In this document: positions 12,360-32,472 of the stretch, one piece after another | How the letters are laid out: the number at the start of each line of letters is the position of its first letter | How positions within the stretch are numbered: the stretch's first letter is position 1 | Assembly: GCF_040530035.1 (NCBI RefSeq) | Contig: NZ_JBEWCD010000001.1 | Span: 1,984,001 to 2,048,000 of the forward strand | Source of the DNA: Roseibium sp. HPY-6 | GTDB taxonomy: Bacteria > Pseudomonadota > Alphaproteobacteria > Rhizobiales > Stappiaceae | Reading direction: 5' to 3' | DNA: 64,000 nt | Translations under genes and position numbers: made by a program | The notes under the pieces: model-generated | Seen by the model: the letters and a program-made list of their open reading frames with translations, nothing else | Told to the model about the DNA's origin: nothing | Database searches by the model: none

Positions 12360-13580
12360 CTATTCGGCCGGAACCGTGTTCTTGTCCGGCGCTTCAGACT
12401 TGCGCTCAGCTTCCTCGACTTCCTTCACCCACAGACCATGGTGTTCGCGAGCCCATTGCAGCTCAACTTCGCCGGATCCCATAGCATCATAGGCCCCCTC
12501 CATACCGACCGAGCCGATGTAGATGTGCGCCAGGATCATCGCGATCATCACAAAGGCGACAATGGTGTGCCAGAGCTGCGCGTACTGCATTTCCTCATGC
12601 GGTGCGAGTTCTGTCGGCAACGTGCCAAGCCCGACCAATTGAGGCAGACCGAGCGCGTTCAGCTTCTCGAAGGTGACCGCGAACATCGGGAACTCGAACG
12701 GGAACAGCAGGGAAATACCAGACGCTGAGATCGAAGCCCCGAGGACGATCACCCCCCAGAAAATCATCTTCTGACCGAAGTTGAATTTCTTCGCCGGCGG
12801 ATGCACGCCTTTCTTGAGCAGCCCGCCGCCAACGGCAATCCACTTCAGGTCCGTCTTGTTCGGAATGTTGTGCACGACCCACATGACGAAAATCATCACA
12901 AGGGCCAGCATGAAGGCCCAGGAGACATTGTTGTGCACCCACTTTGATGCCAGCGCAATCGGCGCATAGGCGTCCTTTCCGAGCAGCGGGATGATCGCTA
13001 TGCGGCCGAAAAGGACGACAAGCCCTGTTACCGCAAGCAGGATGAAACTCCCTGCAAGCAGCCAGTGCCCGAACCTTTCGATCATCTTGAAGCGCGTGAT
13101 GGTGCGTCCTGTTTTCTCGCCATCAATGCGGATCCGTCCGCGAAGCAGATAGAACAGGACCAGGAAGACAAGCGTTCCGGCAAGAAGGTAAGCGCCGTAA
13201 ATCTTCAATGGACCGTTGCGGAGCTCCAGCCAGCGCATCCCGCCATCCTGCATGAGAACAGTCGCTTCCTTGCCGCCGGAGGAAACCGTTATGTCCGCTG
13301 AGCCGAACCGGAGCGCGCGCCAGAGTTCGGGGTCCGACACGCCGCCAAGGGTCCCGAGCTGCGACGACATTCCGGCCGCAGAATTCGGATCGCCGGTTGC
13401 GCTGCTGCGAAAGTCGTTGTCGACCTTCTCGCCGCGCTGGCGCTTCATGATGTCTTCCAGCGTCTGCGCACCGCCAGTGGCTGCGCGATCTGCCTGTTGC
13501 GGCCCCGGTGTCTGGTCTTGCGCCAGTCCCTGAGACAAAAATGCCAGAAGGACAACAACAGCCAAAGCCAAGCGTTTCAT
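12360..13580 (-). CDS. fdhC: Formate dehydrogenase gamma subunit (cytochrome b556)
   Basis: A 406-residue membrane subunit. A signal peptide (1-20) and a periplasmic low-complexity region (to about 120) precede four or five transmembrane helices (from about 128). Histidines in RFGHWLL, KWVHNN, WVVHN and the C-terminal QLWHTIV and LAHIYIG helices are positioned to ligate two b haems, as in FdnI/FdoI. It transfers electrons from the beta subunit to quinone. The extended N-terminus (over 100 residues before the first core helix) is longer than in the enterobacterial enzyme. It is followed by the WD40-cytochrome c gene. Confidence 0.92.
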   Translation of the reverse strand: MKRLALAVVVLLAFLSQGLAQDQTPGPQQADRAATGGAQTLEDIMKRQRGEKVDNDFRSSATGDPNSAAGMSSQLGTLGGVSDPELWRALRFGSADITVSSGGKEATVLMQDGGMRWLELRNGPLKIYGAYLLAGTLVFLVLFYLLRGRIRIDGEKTGRTITRFKMIERFGHWLLAGSFILLAVTGLVVLFGRIAIIPLLGKDAYAPIALASKWVHNNVSWAFMLALVMIFVMWVVHNIPNKTDLKWIAVGGGLLKKGVHPPAKKFNFGQKMIFWGVIVLGASISASGISLLFPFEFPMFAVTFEKLNALGLPQLVGLGTLPTELAPHEEMQYAQLWHTIVAFVMIAMILAHIYIGSVGMEGAYDAMGSGEVELQWAREHHGLWVKEVEEAERKSEAPDKNTVPAE

Positions 13581-26552: not shown

Positions 26553-26590
26553 GCAAGGCGGATTACCGCCTTGCTCCTTTTCTCTTCTTC
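26553..26590 (+). terminator. Terminator between the convergent exporter and rtcB genes
   Basis: GCAAGGCGG-ATTA-CCGCCTTGC is a perfect 9-bp hairpin followed on the plus strand by a pyrimidine-rich run (TCCTTTTCTCTTCTTCC). It overlaps the last codons and the stop of rtcB. On the minus strand the sequence after the hairpin is U-poor, so it probably serves mainly the exporter transcript. Confidence 0.7.
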
Positions 26591-27969
26591 CAGAACGGCT
26601 CGATATCACCGGCCATGATGCAGCCGAAGGGATCGATATAGTCCTCGATTTCGGCCAGATCGTATTTCTTGATCTGGGCAACAACCGCATCGGCCTTCTT
26701 GTAGCCGGACGGCAGTTCGGAGACGTCGATCTTCTCTTCGAAGAAACGGATGTCGAGACCTTCCGTTTCTTCCTTAAGCATCTCTTCCGGCGTCTTGCCG
26801 AGCGAGCGGCGCTTGTGCTCGGAGCGCGAGAAGTTGCGCCCCGCGCCATGCGGCGAGAACCCGAGCGCATGACCGGCATCCTTGCCGCGTACGACCAGAA
26901 CCGGTTCAGCCATGTTCAGCGGGATCAGTGTCAGCCCCGTTGCATCGGATGCGTATCCGTCCCAGGCCGGGGTCGCCCCCTTGCCGTGGTAGAACAGACC
27001 GTCACGCTCGAACACGAAGTTATGCTCGTTCCAGAAACGGTCCGAGTGGGTGGTCCCGCTCGCCTCGACCGTCGCCTGATGCAACGCGTTGTGGTTGGCC
27101 TTGGTCCACTTGCGGATCAGCTGCAAGGCTTCCCAATAGGCTTTTCCTTCCTTGCTCTCAGACGGGATCCAGGCGTTCTGCTTCAAGGTTTTCGGCGACA
27201 GTTTCCTGCGGTATTTTTCCGCAACGCTCATGCCGATCTTGTAAAGAACAGCCCCCGGCCCGCGGGATCCATGGTGGGTCACCATCGCCGTTTTCCCGGT
27301 ATTCCTGGAAACGCCGACAAATAGGAAATGGTTGCCGTCGCCCTGGGTTCCCAGATGCTCCTGCGCCATGCGCAGGATCTTCGGGTCGTTCAGGAACCGG
27401 TTCTCGCGGAACTGGTCGTAAAGGCCCATGGACATCGTGAAGCGCTTGCCGTTGGCACGGCCACCCGAGCCGAAATGCGTCACCGAATGCGCGGCATCCA
27501 GAACGGTTTTCGGATCAGCGTCCTCAAACTCTGTCATCATCACAGAGCAGCAGATATCGGCGCTGTGCATTCCCGGATGGATGGCGTTGCGGGCCGCAAC
27601 GACACCGCCGACCGGGATGGTCCCGAGCGGACCTGCCGGACAGGCATCCGGCATGATCGCGCCGGCTTCGACCGTCGGCGTACGCATCAGCTCGGTCATG
27701 TGATGCTTGACCGCCTTCAGGTTCGCCTCTTCGTCCTCACCTTCCGCGTCCAGGTTGACGTGAAACGGCTTTTCTCCGGACGCAGCCAGCGGCAGAACCG
27801 GGGCCGGCTTGTAGCCTTCCAGCATCTGACGCACATCCTCAAGCGGCGTACCCTGATCGAGCGCGGCCTGACCGTCCCTGAGGGCGGCACCAAAGGCCTT
27901 GCCTTCTTCGTGGCCCCACGCGGTCAGCATCGCGCTGGTCAGCTGTGTCATTTCCCTCTCAATCGTCAT
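26563..27969 (-). CDS. rtcB: RNA-splicing/repair ligase RtcB
   Basis: A 468-residue GTP- and Mn-dependent RNA 3'-phosphate/5'-OH ligase. Metal and nucleotide motifs are all present: HPGMHSADICCSV (131-143), GDGNH (210-214), HHGSRGPG (232-239) and SPHGAGRNFSRS (372-383), where H374 corresponds to the guanylylated histidine. It seals RNAs cleaved to leave 2',3'-cyclic phosphate. The ribosome site GAAGGAAG precedes the ATG. It lies only 20 nt downstream of the last Y-RNA-like module and follows rsr, so it is the distal gene of an RNA-repair operon. No rtcA cyclase gene is adjacent. Confidence 0.95.
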   Translation of the reverse strand: MTIEREMTQLTSAMLTAWGHEEGKAFGAALRDGQAALDQGTPLEDVRQMLEGYKPAPVLPLAASGEKPFHVNLDAEGEDEEANLKAVKHHMTELMRTPTVEAGAIMPDACPAGPLGTIPVGGVVAARNAIHPGMHSADICCSVMMTEFEDADPKTVLDAAHSVTHFGSGGRANGKRFTMSMGLYDQFRENRFLNDPKILRMAQEHLGTQGDGNHFLFVGVSRNTGKTAMVTHHGSRGPGAVLYKIGMSVAEKYRRKLSPKTLKQNAWIPSESKEGKAYWEALQLIRKWTKANHNALHQATVEASGTTHSDRFWNEHNFVFERDGLFYHGKGATPAWDGYASDATGLTLIPLNMAEPVLVVRGKDAGHALGFSPHGAGRNFSRSEHKRRSLGKTPEEMLKEETEGLDIRFFEEKIDVSELPSGYKKADAVVAQIKKYDLAEIEDYIDPFGCIMAGDIEPFWKKRKGARR

Positions 27970-27989: not shown

Positions 27990-28052
27990 GCCTGGCGGCA
28001 AACGTGTCGCGGAAAATCGTCAGAAACGAACGCCCGCCAGCATCCGCCAGGC
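27990..28052 (-). ncRNA. Y-RNA-like module G (mini type)
   Basis: A 63-nt element closed by a 9-bp perfect stem (GCCTGGCGG with its complement). The 5' strand continues ATGCTGGCGGGCG and the 3' strand ends CGTTTG before the stem, matching the shared pattern of the array (stem, ATGCCGGC-like block, loop, yyTTG, stem). There is no tRNA-like domain. It lies 4 nt after module F and 20 nt before rtcB. Confidence 0.6.
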
Positions 28053-28056
28053 TATG

Positions 28057-28195
28057 CGGGGCAAGGTTTGGCAAGATCTTCTTTCCGCCACCGGATTGCT
28101 CCGGGCCAGGCTTGAACTGGCACGGGAAGCACTGTCGCGCCTCCCCTCTCGACCGCGCCGGGAGGCGTCTACCTGTAATCCTGCCGGCATCCCCG
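28057..28195 (-). ncRNA. Y-RNA-like module F with T-arm mimic
   Basis: A 139-nt element with a short closing stem (CGGGG/CCCCG), then ATGCCGGCAGGATTACAGG on the 5' side and ACCTTG on the 3' side. Inside, in transcript order, are an 8-bp hairpin (28160-28167 with 28138-28145), a perfect T-arm mimic (GCCAG-TTCAAGC-CTGGC, 28105-28121) and a 5-bp hairpin capped by a GCAA tetraloop (28091-28104). The layout parallels modules C and E, but the acceptor-like hairpin is much shorter. Confidence 0.6.
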
Positions 28196-28244
28196 ATTTC
28201 GCGGCAAAGCCGCATTCAAAGTTACCGTTCGAAAATTCCAAAAT

Positions 28245-28389
28245 CCGGTCAGAGCGACGAGGTGGGTGCGAAACGTTCCTGCTCTACCGCTTGAGCTACG
28301 CTGCATCAGATGGTTGCAGCGACGGGACTCGAACCCGCAACCTGGCGATTAAAGATCGATGTAGTTCCGCAGGCATTCGCCCTGACCGG
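28245..28389 (-). ncRNA. YrlA-like Y RNA, module E, with circularly permuted tRNA mimic
   Basis: A 145-nt element closed by a 13-bp stem (CCGGTCAGGGCGA with TCGCTCTGACCGG). Next comes AATGCCTGCGGAACTACATC, the shared Ro-stem block. The effector part reads in tRNA order but permuted: T arm (28322-28338, loop TTCGAGT), acceptor 3' strand CGCTGCA, the loop ACCATCTGA, acceptor 5' strand TGCAGCG (7 perfect base pairs), then D arm (28281-28296). Bacterial YrlA RNAs bind Rsr through the outer stem and expose such a tRNA-like domain. No anticodon arm exists. It is nearly identical to module C and of the same length. Confidence 0.85.
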
Positions 28390-28396
28390 TTTTCCG

Positions 28397-28461
28397 CGCG
28401 GCGGCAAGGTGATGACAAGACACTCATGGTCAAGAATGTAGTCCTGCCGGCATCCGCCGCG
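28397..28461 (-). ncRNA. Y-RNA-like module D (mini type)
   Basis: A 65-nt element with a perfect 8-bp closing stem (CGCGGCGG/CCGCCGCG), 5' block ATGCCGGCAGGACTACATT and 3' block ACCTTG before the stem. It has the Ro-stem features of the larger modules but no tRNA-like arms, like module G. It sits 7 nt upstream (transcript sense) of module E, so D and E could be one bipartite transcript. Confidence 0.65.
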
Positions 28462-28524
28462 TTCAAAATATCTTTCCTTTAAATCTCCTTCATGCGCCAG
28501 ATACTGGTTGCTATTGGTGTCAGT

Positions 28525-28669
28525 CCGGTCAGGACGACAAGATCGGTGCAAAACACTCCTGCTCTATCCGTTGAGCTACGCTGCATCAGATGGTTGCAGC
28601 GGCGGGATTCGAACCCGCAACCTGGCGATCCTGAGTCGATGTAGTTCTGCAGGCATTCGCCCTGACCGG
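28525..28669 (-). ncRNA. YrlA-like Y RNA, module C, with circularly permuted tRNA mimic
   Basis: A 145-nt element closed by a 13-bp stem (CCGGTCAGGGCGA with TCGTCCTGACCGG). Compared with module E, the wobble pair has moved by one position, which is a compensatory change supporting the fold. T arm at 28602-28618 (GCGGG-TTCGAAT-CCCGC), acceptor hairpin at 28579-28601 with ACCA in its loop, D arm at 28561-28576. A 63-nt linker separates it from module D. Confidence 0.85.
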
Positions 28670-28677
28670 TTAATCTC

Positions 28678-28811
28678 TGCGGCGGCAAGTCGATGATGAA
28701 ATCAGCTCCGTTGCCTTTCCTCGTTAGACGACATCGCAATCCCGCGAAGGCGTGGCCCGACCCACGCATTTCCGGAGGTAACAATGTAATTCCATCGGCA
28801 TCCGCCTCGCA
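28678..28811 (-). ncRNA. Y-RNA-like module B
   Basis: A 134-nt element whose closing stem is TGC-(GA bulge)-GGCGG with CCGCCGCA. The 5' block is ATGCCGATGGAATTACATTG and the 3' block ends GACTTG. Inside are a 6-bp hairpin GCGTGG-GTCGGG-CCACGC in the T-arm position, a small TCGC/GCGA hairpin, and a D-arm-like TCGT-CTA-ACGA. The tRNA resemblance is weaker than in C and E. It ends 8 nt before module C. Confidence 0.6.
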
Positions 28812-28822
28812 TCAAAAACTCT

Positions 28823-29066
28823 GGAAAGACCAGGCGACAAAAGTAAAGAAACACGGGAGTCCCGCTCGAGCCTAAGAGCGCATGCTGCGATCAACCTGCG
28901 CTCGGAAAGCGCAGACAAGTTGATCGACCCGTTAAGGCCGGTCAGCCTATGGACATTCCATCGGTTCCGATTGAATGTCCGCTGATCTGGAGGGGAGTCG
29001 AACCCGCTCGGACTTTGTCCCATAGTTGGAGCAATGTAGTTCCTTCGGCATTCGCCGGATCTTCCC
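28823..29066 (-). ncRNA. Y-RNA-like module A (long, first of the array)
   Basis: A 244-nt element starting 40 nt after the rsr stop. The 5' strand GGGAAGATCCGGCGA pairs with TCGCCTGGTCTTTCC (one mismatch, some wobbles). The 5' block is ATGCCGAAGGAACTACATTG and the 3' block ends CTTTTG. It holds a T-arm mimic (28992-29007, loop TTCGACT), an extended hairpin where C and E have the acceptor hairpin (TCAGC/GCTGA plus GGACATTC/GAATGTCC, 28942-28985), and a second strong hairpin (GATCAAC/GTTGATC enclosing CTGCGCT/AGCGCAG, 28889-28925). The long pairing between its ends makes a single unit likely. Confidence 0.6.
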
Positions 29067-29106: not shown

Positions 29107-30681
29107 TCAGGTCAGTTCGATCGCTTCGATCTCTCCGACCCACTGGTCCGCAGTCATCGCCCCCTTGGCAAAGGCCGCAATCTGGTCGAACACCGCATCG
29201 GAGAAGCCCCCGATGTTGAGGATATCCGGCCGCGACTTGGCCTGGCTTGTGCCATAAGGCGCGATATCGATGCACACCAGCTTGGCATCCGGGTTACGCC
29301 TTTTCAGCGCTTCCCATTCACGCATCACGCCGGTTCCATGCCGATCCTGGACTCCCGCCCAGGACTGGTTATCGGATACCAGGATCACCAGATCCGGTGC
29401 CCGGCGTTTTGCGTTCAGCCACGCCAGCGGCGCTGCACAGTTCGTTCCGCCGCCCCACTGCTCGGTGAGCTTTTTGGCGTTGGTCATGACGGTATCTCGC
29501 CCCGTCAGCTTGACCTGCCGAACCTTGACTTCAAACGGCAGGACCGTGGCCCCGCGGTTTCGCCGCAGAACGGCTGCGGACACAAGAGCTGCAACATCGA
29601 CGCAGCGCGTCTCGGTTGTCGCCCCCTTTCTGTACCCCGTCACCGGAGAGATCATGGACCCGGAAACGTCCGGGCACACAACGACCTGACCCTTGAAGGC
29701 CGGTACGTTGGCGACCGAGATTTCCAGCGCTTCATGCATCGCCTCGCGGATTTCGGACGGCATATCCTCAGACAATGCCTGGAAACCCGTGAGCAGCTGA
29801 TACGGAAAGGCGCGAGCCTTCCTGATACGCTTCGGATCCTTCAATATATCGGCAACGATGCCGACCACCGGTGTCTTTTTGAACCGTTCATCCTCAAAGA
29901 TGCCATGGCGCAGGAAAGTGTTCAGGTTCATGCGCACCATGTTCCAGCTTCCACGTTCTGCCAGCTTCGCCCAGTCTTTCCTGGAAAGCGGCAGATGCGT
30001 CAGCATCTGGAACGGAACGTCCGGTACTTCACGGCCCTTCGGGTTTTCCAGGAAGGCCACATAGTCTCGGACCTGCTCCGGCAGCTTTTCAACGTCGCAC
30101 GGCTTGCCGATCAACCAGGCGAAGAGAGCCTCACGCTCGGCATCGCGCGGTTTCGGGTGCACTATCTTGATGACATCGGCAAGCGACGGATCTTTCCCGA
30201 TATTTGCCTGAAGCAACTGGTAATCCGTTGCAGCGTTCAGCCAACCGCGCACCAAGGCCTTCGGCCTGGTTCCGAGCGACTTGCGCCCCGTCTGACCGGA
30301 TCGCAGGATCTGCACGAAGTTGCGCAGCATTTTTCCGTCGGTCACGACATGCGGGAAGGCTTTCGCCAACAGCTGCGGGTCACGCGATGCCAGCACCGCC
30401 AGCAACAGGGCCGGCAGGTCTTTCATCTTGCCCTTCTGGCGGGCGTAAACAGCCGTCTTCGCCAGAAACCCATCCGGAACCGAAGCCGCCGTTTCAAGAA
30501 CGGCCTTCAGCTCGAGCTCGGCGGACTGGTAGAACGTGTTGCCGATGGAGCCCGTTGCAGCCAGCTGCGCCAGCTTGTGACGGTCTTCATATGTGTAGGC
30601 CTTGCCACCCGCCAGGTTCCTGGCGTCGGCTTTGCCGGAAAAACGTCCACGCTGGGATGCAAACAGAGATTTGTTCGCCAT
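29107..30681 (-). CDS. rsr: Rsr, Ro60-type TROVE domain RNA-binding protein
   Basis: A 524-residue orthologue of Ro60: a HEAT-repeat TROVE ring (about 1-330) followed by a von Willebrand A domain with an intact MIDAS motif DVSGSM at 338-343 and a TNCAAPLAWL second loop. Rsr binds Y RNAs on the outer surface of the ring and misfolded or 3'-ended RNAs in its hole; with Y RNA and polynucleotide phosphorylase it forms a degradosome in Deinococcus. ATG 30681 has GAGGAG 7 nt upstream. It is directly followed by the Y-RNA-like array and rtcB, and is divergent from rtcR. Confidence 0.96.
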   Translation of the reverse strand: MANKSLFASQRGRFSGKADARNLAGGKAYTYEDRHKLAQLAATGSIGNTFYQSAELELKAVLETAASVPDGFLAKTAVYARQKGKMKDLPALLLAVLASRDPQLLAKAFPHVVTDGKMLRNFVQILRSGQTGRKSLGTRPKALVRGWLNAATDYQLLQANIGKDPSLADVIKIVHPKPRDAEREALFAWLIGKPCDVEKLPEQVRDYVAFLENPKGREVPDVPFQMLTHLPLSRKDWAKLAERGSWNMVRMNLNTFLRHGIFEDERFKKTPVVGIVADILKDPKRIRKARAFPYQLLTGFQALSEDMPSEIREAMHEALEISVANVPAFKGQVVVCPDVSGSMISPVTGYRKGATTETRCVDVAALVSAAVLRRNRGATVLPFEVKVRQVKLTGRDTVMTNAKKLTEQWGGGTNCAAPLAWLNAKRRAPDLVILVSDNQSWAGVQDRHGTGVMREWEALKRRNPDAKLVCIDIAPYGTSQAKSRPDILNIGGFSDAVFDQIAAFAKGAMTADQWVGEIEAIELT

Positions 30682-30888
30682 TGTCTCGCTCCTCAAACCC
30701 GTGCCTGGAAAGGCGTTGGTGTTCGTGTCTGTGTTGAGAAGGAGATTGCATCAGCGAACCGCGCAGAAAAACAAAAAAGCAAATTAGATGTAAGTCACTG
30801 TATTTAATAGGTTATCTTGAATATTGACATTTGCAGCAAGAAATATTCTTATACTTTTGGATACGAATTTATAAAACTGGATATCTCG
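30682..30888. promoter_or_regulatory. Divergent rsr-rtcR promoter region without a canonical sigma-54 box
   Basis: A 207-bp, AT-rich spacer (T and A runs around 30767-30795). RtcR regulators normally activate sigma-54 promoters (TGGCAC-N5-TTGC). The nearest matches are AGGCAC followed by TTGAG only about 10 nt before the rsr ribosome site, and a GG/GC pair with 9 rather than 10 nt spacing near 30751-30763. Neither is convincing. Confidence 0.45.
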
Positions 30889-32472
30889 TTGAAAAAGAAC
30901 GTCGTCATCGGCTTTCTCGGCACGCAACTGGACGCCGGCAAAAAGCGTCGCTGGCGTCCGTCTATCGCCGTGACCCAGCATGGCAGTTTTCCGGTACACA
31001 GGATTGAACTCCTGTACGACAGGGCGTTTCATCGCCTCGCGCAAAACGTCAAGGCAGACATCGAGGATGCAAGCCCGGCGACGGAGGTCTTGCTGCAACT
31101 CGTCGACCTTCGCGATCCGTGGGACTTTCAGGAAGTTTACGGAGCCCTCTTTGACTTCGCGCGCGAGTATGGTTTCGACGAGGATAGAGAGGACTACTTC
31201 GTCCATCTGACAACGGGGACACACGTTGCCCAGATCTGCTGGTTCTTGCTGACGGAATCCCGTCACGTCCCAGCCAAGCTGGTGCAGACATCACCGCCGC
31301 GCGGCGAGGACAGCGAGGTCAACGGCCGCTACAACATTGTCGACCTTGACCTCTCGCGCTACGACGCCCTGCAGCAGCGCTTCGATCTCATTGCAGAAGA
31401 ATACAACGCGCTCCTGAAAGCCGGCATCGAAACCCGCAACCCGGCCTTCAACAGCCTGATAGAACGCATAGAGCTTGTCGCCACGAACTCGGATGCGCCA
31501 CTGCTCTTGCTCGGAGACACCGGCACCGGCAAGAGCGAGCTGGCAGAACGCATTTACGAACTCAAGCTGCAGCGCCGCCGGGTAAAGGGCAGGCTGGTCC
31601 ATGTGAACTGTGCCACCCTGAAGGGCGAGCGCGCCATGTCGAGCCTCTTTGGCCACCGGCGCGGAACCATGGGAACCGGCAGCCCGGACAGGCGAGGCCT
31701 GCTGCGCGAGGCCGATGGCGGCGTCCTGTTTCTCGATGAGATCAACGAACTCGGCCTTGATGAGCAGGCGATGATCCTCCACGCCGTCGAGACCGGCCGC
31801 TTCCTGCCCGTCGGATCCGATCATGAAATCACCAGCCGTTTCCAGCTCATTGCCGGGACCAATCGCGACCTCGGGCAACTTGTCTCTGAAGGAAAGTTCC
31901 GGCCGGATCTTTACGCGCGCCTGAACCTCTGGACATTCCGCCTGCCCTCGCTGACCGAGCGCCGCGAGGATGTCGAACCCAATATCGAGTTTGAACTCAA
32001 CCGGTCCGAAAAACTGCTTGGTAGCCGGGTCGGCTTCAACGCTGATGCGCGCGCGCGTTATCTCGATTTCGCCATGTCTCCTGCGACGCCCTGGCCGGGA
32101 AACTTTCGCGATCTGGGCGCTTCGGTTCAAAGACTGTGTACCCTTGCCCCGCGCGGACGCATCACGCAAGCGCTCGTGGATCAGGAGATTGAAGCCCTCG
32201 AACGTCAGTGGATGAGCGCTGAAACCAATCCGGATGACGCCCTTCTGGAAGACTTGCTCGGAGATCGAACCGGGGACATTGACGCCTTCGACAGGGTGCA
32301 GCTTGCCTATGTCATTCGTGTTTGCCGCAAGAGCCCCTCGCTGAGTGCGGCGGGCAGAGTGCTTTTCGCAGCCTCCCGCGCGACACGAACCAGCCGCAAC
32401 GATGCCGACCGCCTCAAGAAGTATCTGGACCGGTTTGACCTGAGTTGGCAGTCGATTGTGGCCGATCGCTGA
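30889..32472 (+). CDS. rtcR: RNA-repair regulator RtcR (CARF-AAA+ protein) with degenerate GAFTGA loop
   Basis: A 527-residue protein: N-terminal CARF-type RtcR sensor domain (1-180, NVVIGFLGTQLD, DYFVHLTTGTHVAQICWF), AAA+ domain (185-420) with Walker A GDTGTGKS (209-216) and Walker B VLFLDE (279-284), and a C-terminal HTH region. In sigma-54 activators the L1 loop reads GAFTGA; here residues 259-264 read GTMGTG in the same register (LFGHRRGTMGTGSPDRRG). The sensor is thought to bind RNA-derived ligands such as cyclic-phosphate ends. TTG 30889 is chosen because family members start at the K-K-NVVIGFLG segment; a TTG at 30817 is the alternative. Confidence 0.9.
   Translation: MKKNVVIGFLGTQLDAGKKRRWRPSIAVTQHGSFPVHRIELLYDRAFHRLAQNVKADIEDASPATEVLLQLVDLRDPWDFQEVYGALFDFAREYGFDEDREDYFVHLTTGTHVAQICWFLLTESRHVPAKLVQTSPPRGEDSEVNGRYNIVDLDLSRYDALQQRFDLIAEEYNALLKAGIETRNPAFNSLIERIELVATNSDAPLLLLGDTGTGKSELAERIYELKLQRRRVKGRLVHVNCATLKGERAMSSLFGHRRGTMGTGSPDRRGLLREADGGVLFLDEINELGLDEQAMILHAVETGRFLPVGSDHEITSRFQLIAGTNRDLGQLVSEGKFRPDLYARLNLWTFRLPSLTERREDVEPNIEFELNRSEKLLGSRVGFNADARARYLDFAMSPATPWPGNFRDLGASVQRLCTLAPRGRITQALVDQEIEALERQWMSAETNPDDALLEDLLGDRTGDIDAFDRVQLAYVIRVCRKSPSLSAAGRVLFAASRATRTSRNDADRLKKYLDRFDLSWQSIVADR

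Follow-up and report, generated by a model that had tools for sequence, protein, structure and literature searches.

The window, by which we mean the whole 64-kb stretch of DNA analysed, comes from a member of the genus Roseibium (Stappiaceae, Hyphomicrobiales) and contains a locus with the layout rtcR<>rsr-Y7-rtcB. On the minus strand, rsr (29107..30696, with a probable ATG at 30681) encodes a Ro60 orthologue with TROVE and vWA_Ro60 domains; its best named relative is a Roseibium Rsr (96%), and its closest solved structure by sequence is PDB 2nvo (E 8e-24). Downstream on the same strand lies rtcB, which encodes an RNA ligase (26563..27969), and divergent from rsr lies rtcR (30817..32472, plus strand), which encodes a sigma54 enhancer-binding regulator with its own sensor and sigma54 domains. 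A strict scan for sigma54 promoters upstream of rsr gave no match in the window; among nine sources scanned, -24/-12 matches (9/10 letters) precede rsr in three (L014, L015 and L016). The gap between rsr and rtcB, directly beside the Ro60 orthologue, holds seven Y RNA-like elements, which we number el1 to el7 from low to high coordinate. In the portions available of PMC8394870, PMC7790460 and PMC4726728, Rsr is described as binding the stem of a Y RNA, with PNPase linked to the tRNA-like domain of that RNA (RYPER), and tRNA fragments as switching on the RNA-repair operon via RtcR; Salmonella has an rsr-yrlBA-rtcBA locus, as given in the available part of PMC7790460.

We recovered all seven elements, every one on the minus strand, with a structural scan whose template consisted of an outer stem, an AUGC bulge, an inner stem and a YTNG strand. 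When 500 dinucleotide shuffles of the gap were passed to the same caller, 451 gave no element, 45 gave one and four gave two; with a core score of at least 11, 498 shuffles gave none and two gave one. These results uphold the preliminary description in its placement of seven elements on the minus strand between rsr and rtcB. Its further claim, that each element has a closing stem and carries a shared core, holds for the stem in all seven and for the full core in six: these six match all 12 scored core positions, while el1 matches 8/12 and has no TACA. Perfect 12/12 cores are found nowhere else on either strand of the 64 kb, which contains one additional 11/12 match, at 13541 (+). At core scores of 8-9, twelve candidates occur outside the array in the window, six per strand, and el1 is therefore insecure if taken by itself; its call rests on its position, a stem of 9 bp and counterparts in relatives at that position (L010_6, L011_6 and L012_5), which have cores of 11-12. 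At a core score of at least 10, which 183 of the 185 elements called over all loci reach, every call in the window falls within the array, so the caller seems to give few false positives. It also misses some elements, such as one at L097:784-858 that only one of our tRNA models (R1, below) shows, so the per-locus counts are lower bounds. Folding energies lay well below those of shuffled sequences for el7, el5, el4, el3 and el1 (z -4.6 to -2.8) and weakly below for el2 (z -1.7); that of el6 was no better than shuffled (z -0.4).

ARAGORN found no tRNA gene in the 64-kb window. In plain alignments with the 47 host tRNAs, only el5 was clear (38 vs a maximum of 30 in 100 shuffles); el3 scored barely above shuffles (39 vs 37), and el2 (25 vs 30) and el7 (27 vs 28) did not exceed them. 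Because plain alignment was clear for el5 alone, covariance models were needed. We built three from the host's own tRNAs, all of them blind to the Y stem: R1 from 24 tRNAs opened before G18G19 in the D loop, R2 from that same set with the opening in the anticodon loop, and R3 from six tRNA-Leu opened in the D loop.

R2 identified tRNA-like bodies in el3 (28245..28389, minus strand, 145 nt) and el5 (28525..28669, minus strand, 145 nt; folding z -3.3), which are 86% identical to each other. The bodies, at 28277..28355 (minus; 55.8 bits, E 4.7e-16) and 28555..28635 (minus; 60.7 bits, E 1e-17), are both opened at the anticodon and have a 7-bp acceptor followed by A73-CCA. We refer to such elements as class 1: in predicted structure, the Y stem takes the place of the anticodon arm, and the acceptor, often with CCA, is kept. 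This is the plan of YrlA, and under R2 el3 and el5 show the same Y stem, T arm, acceptor and D arm in the same permuted order, beside rsr.

Across 44 sources, R2 gave 62 matches at E<=1e-8; one of them, L083:3559-3640, overlies an ordinary tRNA-Pro gene and was rejected as a class-1 element. An ARAGORN tRNA call over the class-1 element of L080 was taken as an artefact of the permuted body. We assembled a set of 52 non-redundant class-1 elements from 38 loci, each with a T arm, a GCTC/GAGC D arm, TA at positions 8-9 and at least six of the seven acceptor pairs. All 52 have G46, Y48, A14 and the D-loop GG, and the tertiary R15-Y48 pair covaries, being present in 51 of them (38 G-C, 13 A-U); 2000 shuffles, which ignore kinship, reached at most 41. 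CCA stands at 74-76 in 31 of the 52 (37/62 R2 matches, or 36/61 without the L083 tRNA), and information over 48 distinct matches is 0.73-0.91 bits at CCA and at most 0.16 at 77-80: the exactly placed CCA is followed by a linker without conserved sequence. Between Y stem and T arm lies a segment with T33 in 34/52 and R37 in 46/52 and with positions 34-36 nearly free (at most 0.28 bits), a pattern resembling the 3' side of an anticodon loop. The anticodon stem itself is often broken past its first two pairs, three of the five pairs being unpaired in 23-26 of up to 60 sequences.

The preliminary description had suggested an Rfam search. The YrlA model (RF02553) matched el3 (63.6 bits, E 5e-13) and el5 (61.7 bits, E 2e-12) just under its gathering score of 69, matched el6 at 24.7 bits, and gave no match to el2; a copy in the relative L011 reached 69.5 bits, above the gathering score. 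The YrlB model (RF02565) met el4 at 22.2 bits (E 1, gathering score 97), which confers no membership by sequence, although el4 and YrlB are alike in location, each in an rsr-Y-rtcB locus, and in consisting of a short Y stem that bears no tRNA-like top. Other weak Rfam matches (IS128, STnc540 and others) fell under their cut-offs and were discarded. Over 12 loci, RF02553 gave 22 matches at E<=1e-3, six of them above the gathering score.

A second class, to which el2 belongs (28057..28195, minus strand, 139 nt), is predicted to send its Y stem out of the D loop, to keep the anticodon stem and to be without CCA. The permuted tRNA-Leu-like body of el2 (28081..28173, minus; R3 38.4 bits, E 1.1e-8 in 64 kb) runs from D3' through an anticodon arm with a short loop, a long variable arm and a T arm to a 5-bp acceptor closed by GCAA, and ends with D5'. 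R2 met only a T-arm/acceptor fragment of el2 (8.1 bits), and the element does not have the YrlA topology: it is opened at the D loop and has an anticodon stem and variable arm. Besides el2, R3 found in the window only T-arm/acceptor fragments of el3 and el5. It matched 18 of 44 sources at E<1e-6, the window included and one match being cut at the end of its stretch, and it reached beyond the class in L109 (37.0 bits). ARAGORN calls of tRNA-Arg in L009 and tRNA-Pro in L010 lie over such Leu-type elements and were taken as artefacts of permuted bodies.

With R1, 16 elements in 14 loci scored 38.3-57.5 bits, compared with at most 31.2 under R2 (for example, 57.5 vs 23.3 for L096:3753-3826 and 55.4 vs 20.8 for L091:868-945); they were chosen at E<=1e-8, with R1 far above R2, in a search of 16 of the 44 sources picked after a first R1 search. 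In all 16, as read from the match listing, the 5' half of the D arm comes after the acceptor, and ARAGORN found no tRNA gene in the 14 loci. The full R1 list (106 matches at E<=1) mixes class 2 with class-1 cross-matches and ordinary tRNA genes. We rejected L094:1350-1429 (54.8 bits) as a class-1 cross-match, R2 giving 63.8 bits at 1337-1415, and L025:1530-1587, L082:944-1012, L083:3545-3626 and L108:3231-3303 as ordinary tRNA genes; since the latter score 36-43 bits, an R1 score is insufficient and the order of the halves is needed. Together, the two D-loop models place el2 and 32 elements elsewhere in class 2.

In predicted folds, the anticodon loop of the R1 elements has 4 nt in 10/16 and 7 nt in 1/16, and that of the Leu type has 4 nt in 7/17, 3 nt in 6/17 and 7 nt in none of the 17. 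The acceptor of class 2 is capped by short loops. CCA at 74-76 was found in none of the 32 parsed class-2 elements (0/16 R1, 0/16 Leu type), against 36/61 in class 1; of the Leu type, L016 went unparsed and L096 was taken at a wrong hairpin, both being without CCA by eye. With its short loops, capped acceptor and absent CCA, class 2 can hardly decode and has no encoded CCA end. Class 1, unlike class 2, might present a CCA end. Circularly permuted tRNA genes of red algae and other organisms also have their halves reversed, and mature into decoding tRNAs. In the array RNAs the halves are likewise reversed, but a docking stem occupies the gap between them, and both functional ends are gone from class 2; neither class combines the whole anticodon arm, 7-nt loop and CCA of a functional permuted tRNA gene.

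The remaining elements appear as minimal or diverged members. The structural scan gave el4 (28397..28461, minus strand, 65 nt; folding z -3.2) as a minimal Y RNA-like hairpin without top domain, and el1 (27990..28052, minus strand, 63 nt) as a minimal hairpin with a diverged core, with the rtcB start 20 nt on. As the counterparts of el1 in L010, L011 and L012 have good cores and bear a T-arm minihairpin, el1 is probably a reduced member. El6 (28681-28806 under the strict stem rule, 28679-28808 with one mismatch; minus strand) looks like a diverged class-1 element, its tRNA match being weak in the window (R2 10.2 bits) and that of its L012 counterpart reaching 32.3 bits (E 5e-8). The largest, el7 (28833-29056 strict, 28824-29065 with one mismatch; minus strand), has T-arm-like and D-arm-like hairpins and a weak tRNA-model score (8.1 bits); its relatives show, by eye, a 2-3-bp acceptor remnant, at which the window's clade has about 90 nt inserted. 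So far as sequence can support it, the family of Y RNA-like elements of different lengths, with a top domain in some and none in others, is as the preliminary description proposed. An extra tRNA-like Y element with another D arm (GTAGCTGAGTGGTTTAGCA) and an added hairpin occurs at L007:723-779 and L008:725-781 (minus strand; R2 25.7 bits).

Flanks that form a Y stem were found on 54/62 R2 matches (54/61 without the L083 tRNA), 13/16 R1 matches and 14/17 R3 matches; shuffled flanks passed the same test in 6/1240, 1/320 and 0/340 cases, respectively. Under the strict rule, 14 of 95 tRNA-model matches were without a Y stem. The Y stem is real, and it is found independently of the tRNA part. Flanks swapped between loci still passed in 1671/3738 (R2), 179/236 (R1) and 66/272 (R3) cases; they do so often because the outer stems are similar in sequence, and covariation of the docking stem is for this reason only moderately shown. 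The preliminary description had taken the closing stems to differ in sequence and keep their pairing; such covariation is strong in the tRNA bodies. In the alignments, each fitted to its own model, 19/24 pairs of the R3 Leu-type set had double changes with 97.6% of cells paired (at most 57% when partners were slid), and 15/21 pairs of the R2 set, which includes the L083 tRNA as a row, had double changes with 92.4% of cells paired.

Similar arrays occur in other genomes. Samples of 61 relatives and of 385 class, 397 order and 398 phylum genomes, which overlap and all include the window's own genome in their counts, gave Rsr matches in 13 (two of them weak), 7, 29 and 10 genomes, respectively. 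The caller's total for 44 loci, that of the window among them, was 185 elements: one element in two loci, two in five, three in six, four in 13, five in eight, six in seven and seven in three. Where the preliminary description held that such loci usually contain one or two Y RNAs, we found at least three in 37 of 44, still 37 when only cores of at least 10 are counted outside the window. The seven elements are the high end of a common pattern, and that description overrated the rarity of the multi-copy array as well as missing the permuted tRNA tops of two topologies. Three further loci, beyond these 44, lie outside the class: L109 and L110 with five elements each and L111 with two, by the caller. 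Of the 46 loci besides the window, 37 have a same-strand rtcB match downstream, two of these matches being only 25-26% identical; several of the nine loci without one end before the region, and L007 and L025 are incomplete (stretch or contig end). By hand counts, class 2 (R1 or R3) is present in 28/44 loci and an R2 match at E<=1e-8 in 42/44, with class 1 also present in 27 of the 28 class-2 loci. The make-up of the array turns over among close relatives, L009, L010 and L011 differing from one another.

Several side observations concern these genomes. The genus holds two rsr lineages, the Rsr of L015 and L016 being about 51-53% identical to that of the window and those of L007-L013 76-91%; Rsr matches, one of them weak, turned up in no more than 11 of the 37 genomes of the genus, a patchy, transfer-like distribution. 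In R. album (L019:6360-6960) an unrelated open frame splits the array, and Y elements resume beyond it. In Hoeflea poritis the contig end falls within the array (L025:6065-6217), and the class-1 copy stops just past CCA, running into what appears to be an insertion-element end. Two arrays contain an ordinary tRNA-Pro(tgg) gene (at L083:3526-3603 and at L082:954-1031, minus strand), and a third is followed closely by one (L108:3215-3289). A small cluster of odd tRNA genes stands at G000:C2:830400-830845 (L071); in L071 and its neighbour L051, ARAGORN called a tRNA-Leu(cag) of 78 nt that has no long variable arm, perhaps borne by a mobile element.

How much of this is already on record differs between the parts. 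In the 12 loci searched with RF02553, the model overlaps one of 17 class-2 elements (1/11 R1, namely L092:1142-1219 at 36.1 bits, and 0/6 Leu type), and class-2 RNAs are probably largely unannotated because the Rfam model meets almost none of them there. Neither a Y RNA array of this size nor the D-loop topology appears in the available portions of the literature searched (including PMC8394870, PMC7790460, PMC4726728 and PMC8058203), a scope outside which the primary Y RNA papers lie. Multi-Y RNA rsr loci may already stand in the primary survey (Chen 2014). Class 2 is absent from the literature searched, and Rfam's two Y RNA-like families miss el2; the D-loop-tethered, end-sealed class is possibly undescribed, and its novelty is provisional.

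We think it probable (roughly 0.75) that the array encodes seven bacterial Y RNAs that would present a single Rsr-docking stem with interchangeable tRNA-shaped adaptors on top. The analysis establishes that the elements are present and conserved, which topology they have, that the tRNA bodies covary and which genes surround them; like the preliminary description, we infer from the sequence that each is made as a stable transcript of a single operon and bound by Rsr. The seven would be made, and where necessary processed, together with Rsr and RtcB, and would have in common a likely Rsr-docking stem of outer helix, AUGC/YTNG internal loop and inner helix. Their tops vary: el4 and el1 have none, and others carry a tRNA mimic, circularly permuted in one of two ways. 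In el3, el5 and the diverged el6 (class 1) the predicted docking stem stands at the site of the anticodon arm, and the 7-bp acceptor, discriminator and often CCA are kept; in el2 (class 2) it leaves from the D loop, with anticodon stem and long variable arm kept and both working ends capped. El7 is read as an elbow made of T arm and D arm, its acceptor vestigial or replaced. Rsr loaded with one of several such adaptors would most likely have its ring brought to enzymes that hold tRNAs by the elbow, or closed off from them; PNPase is a candidate, by analogy with RYPER, and RtcB or the nucleases and modifying enzymes of tRNAs may be others. The setting would be tRNA-damage stress sensed by RtcR. 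An adaptor role for the array RNAs is drawn by analogy with one studied species. The Deinococcus DrY RNA of RYPER, as described in the available parts of PMC4726728 and PMC8394870, shares with our locus an Rsr orthologue and the plan of docking stem plus effector; it differs in that the Roseibium array has several different effector modules, for which the PNPase tether is an analogy only. YrlA (RF02553) differs in turn from the array taken as a whole, which sets seven elements side by side.

Alternatively, tandem duplication may simply enlarge such arrays, their members sharing one job as redundant dosage. The close identity of el3 and el5 and the differing composition of L009, L010 and L011 fit this idea, which we consider possible but unlikely: distinct classes recur across the order, the Leu type occurs in another class of the phylum (L109, R3 37.0 bits), and nearly every class-2 locus (27/28) also carries class 1.

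It is rather less probable that the RNAs are decoys, tRNA mimics that titrate an anticodon nuclease or a toxin that binds tRNA, giving RtcB time to catch up with repair. The tRNA-repair context suits such a role, the available part of PMC7790460 proposes that YrlA competitively inhibits an anticodon nuclease, and class 1 keeps T33 (34/52) and R37 (46/52) around a variable triplet. Against this, the class-1 anticodon stem is often broken past its first two pairs, and YrlA fragments were not detected according to that same part of PMC7790460. A 7-nt anticodon loop, moreover, occurs in only one of the 16 R1 elements and in no Leu-type element, most loops being of 3-4 nt; that class 2 is sealed argues against a pure decoy for anticodon nucleases.

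We also doubt that the elements are cis-acting structures of an rsr-rtcB mRNA that control rtcB processing or translation and never become separate RNAs. All of them do lie within one intergenic stretch, el1 ends 20 nt ahead of the rtcB start, and the array stretch has no promoter-like site (chance mean 0.4) and one terminator-like site (chance mean 1.2). Yet seven elaborate tRNA-like modules would be needless for such control, and in other species YrlA is described as a discrete Rsr-bound RNA (available part of PMC8394870). Finally, it is highly improbable that the elements are tRNA genes in decay or structures that arose by chance in GC-rich DNA. The plain alignment (25 vs shuffles up to 30) and weak folding (z -1.7) of el2 and the ordinary tRNA genes in or beside the L082, L083 and L108 arrays might point that way, but this reading is contradicted by the covariance models, covariation and orthologues (el2 at 38.4 bits under R3; 19/24 pairs), by a Y stem found independently of the tRNA part and by the lack of any ARAGORN tRNA gene in the window.

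Within the reading of interchangeable adaptors on one docking stem, the two classes might even be functional opposites, open and locked tRNA handles on Ro60 that test damaged tRNA or route it to decay (PNPase) or repair (RtcB), a speculation that we rate as distinctly unlikely. RNase P and a 3' nuclease would then cut the class-1 linker to give a nicked tRNA-like RNA with a real CCA end, which CCA-adding, charging or repair enzymes could engage while it is docked on Rsr. Class 2, sealed at both ends, would not be so processed and would serve as an inert tRNA body holding the same partners.

With up to seven top modules on one predicted Ro-docking stem, these arrays would offer natural variants with which to match each partner to the part that recruits it. 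The existence of a class tethered at the D loop shows that tRNA mimicry on a Y scaffold takes at least two topologies, and the sealed ends of class 2, set against the often-kept CCA of class 1, would provide a direct test of the importance of the acceptor end.
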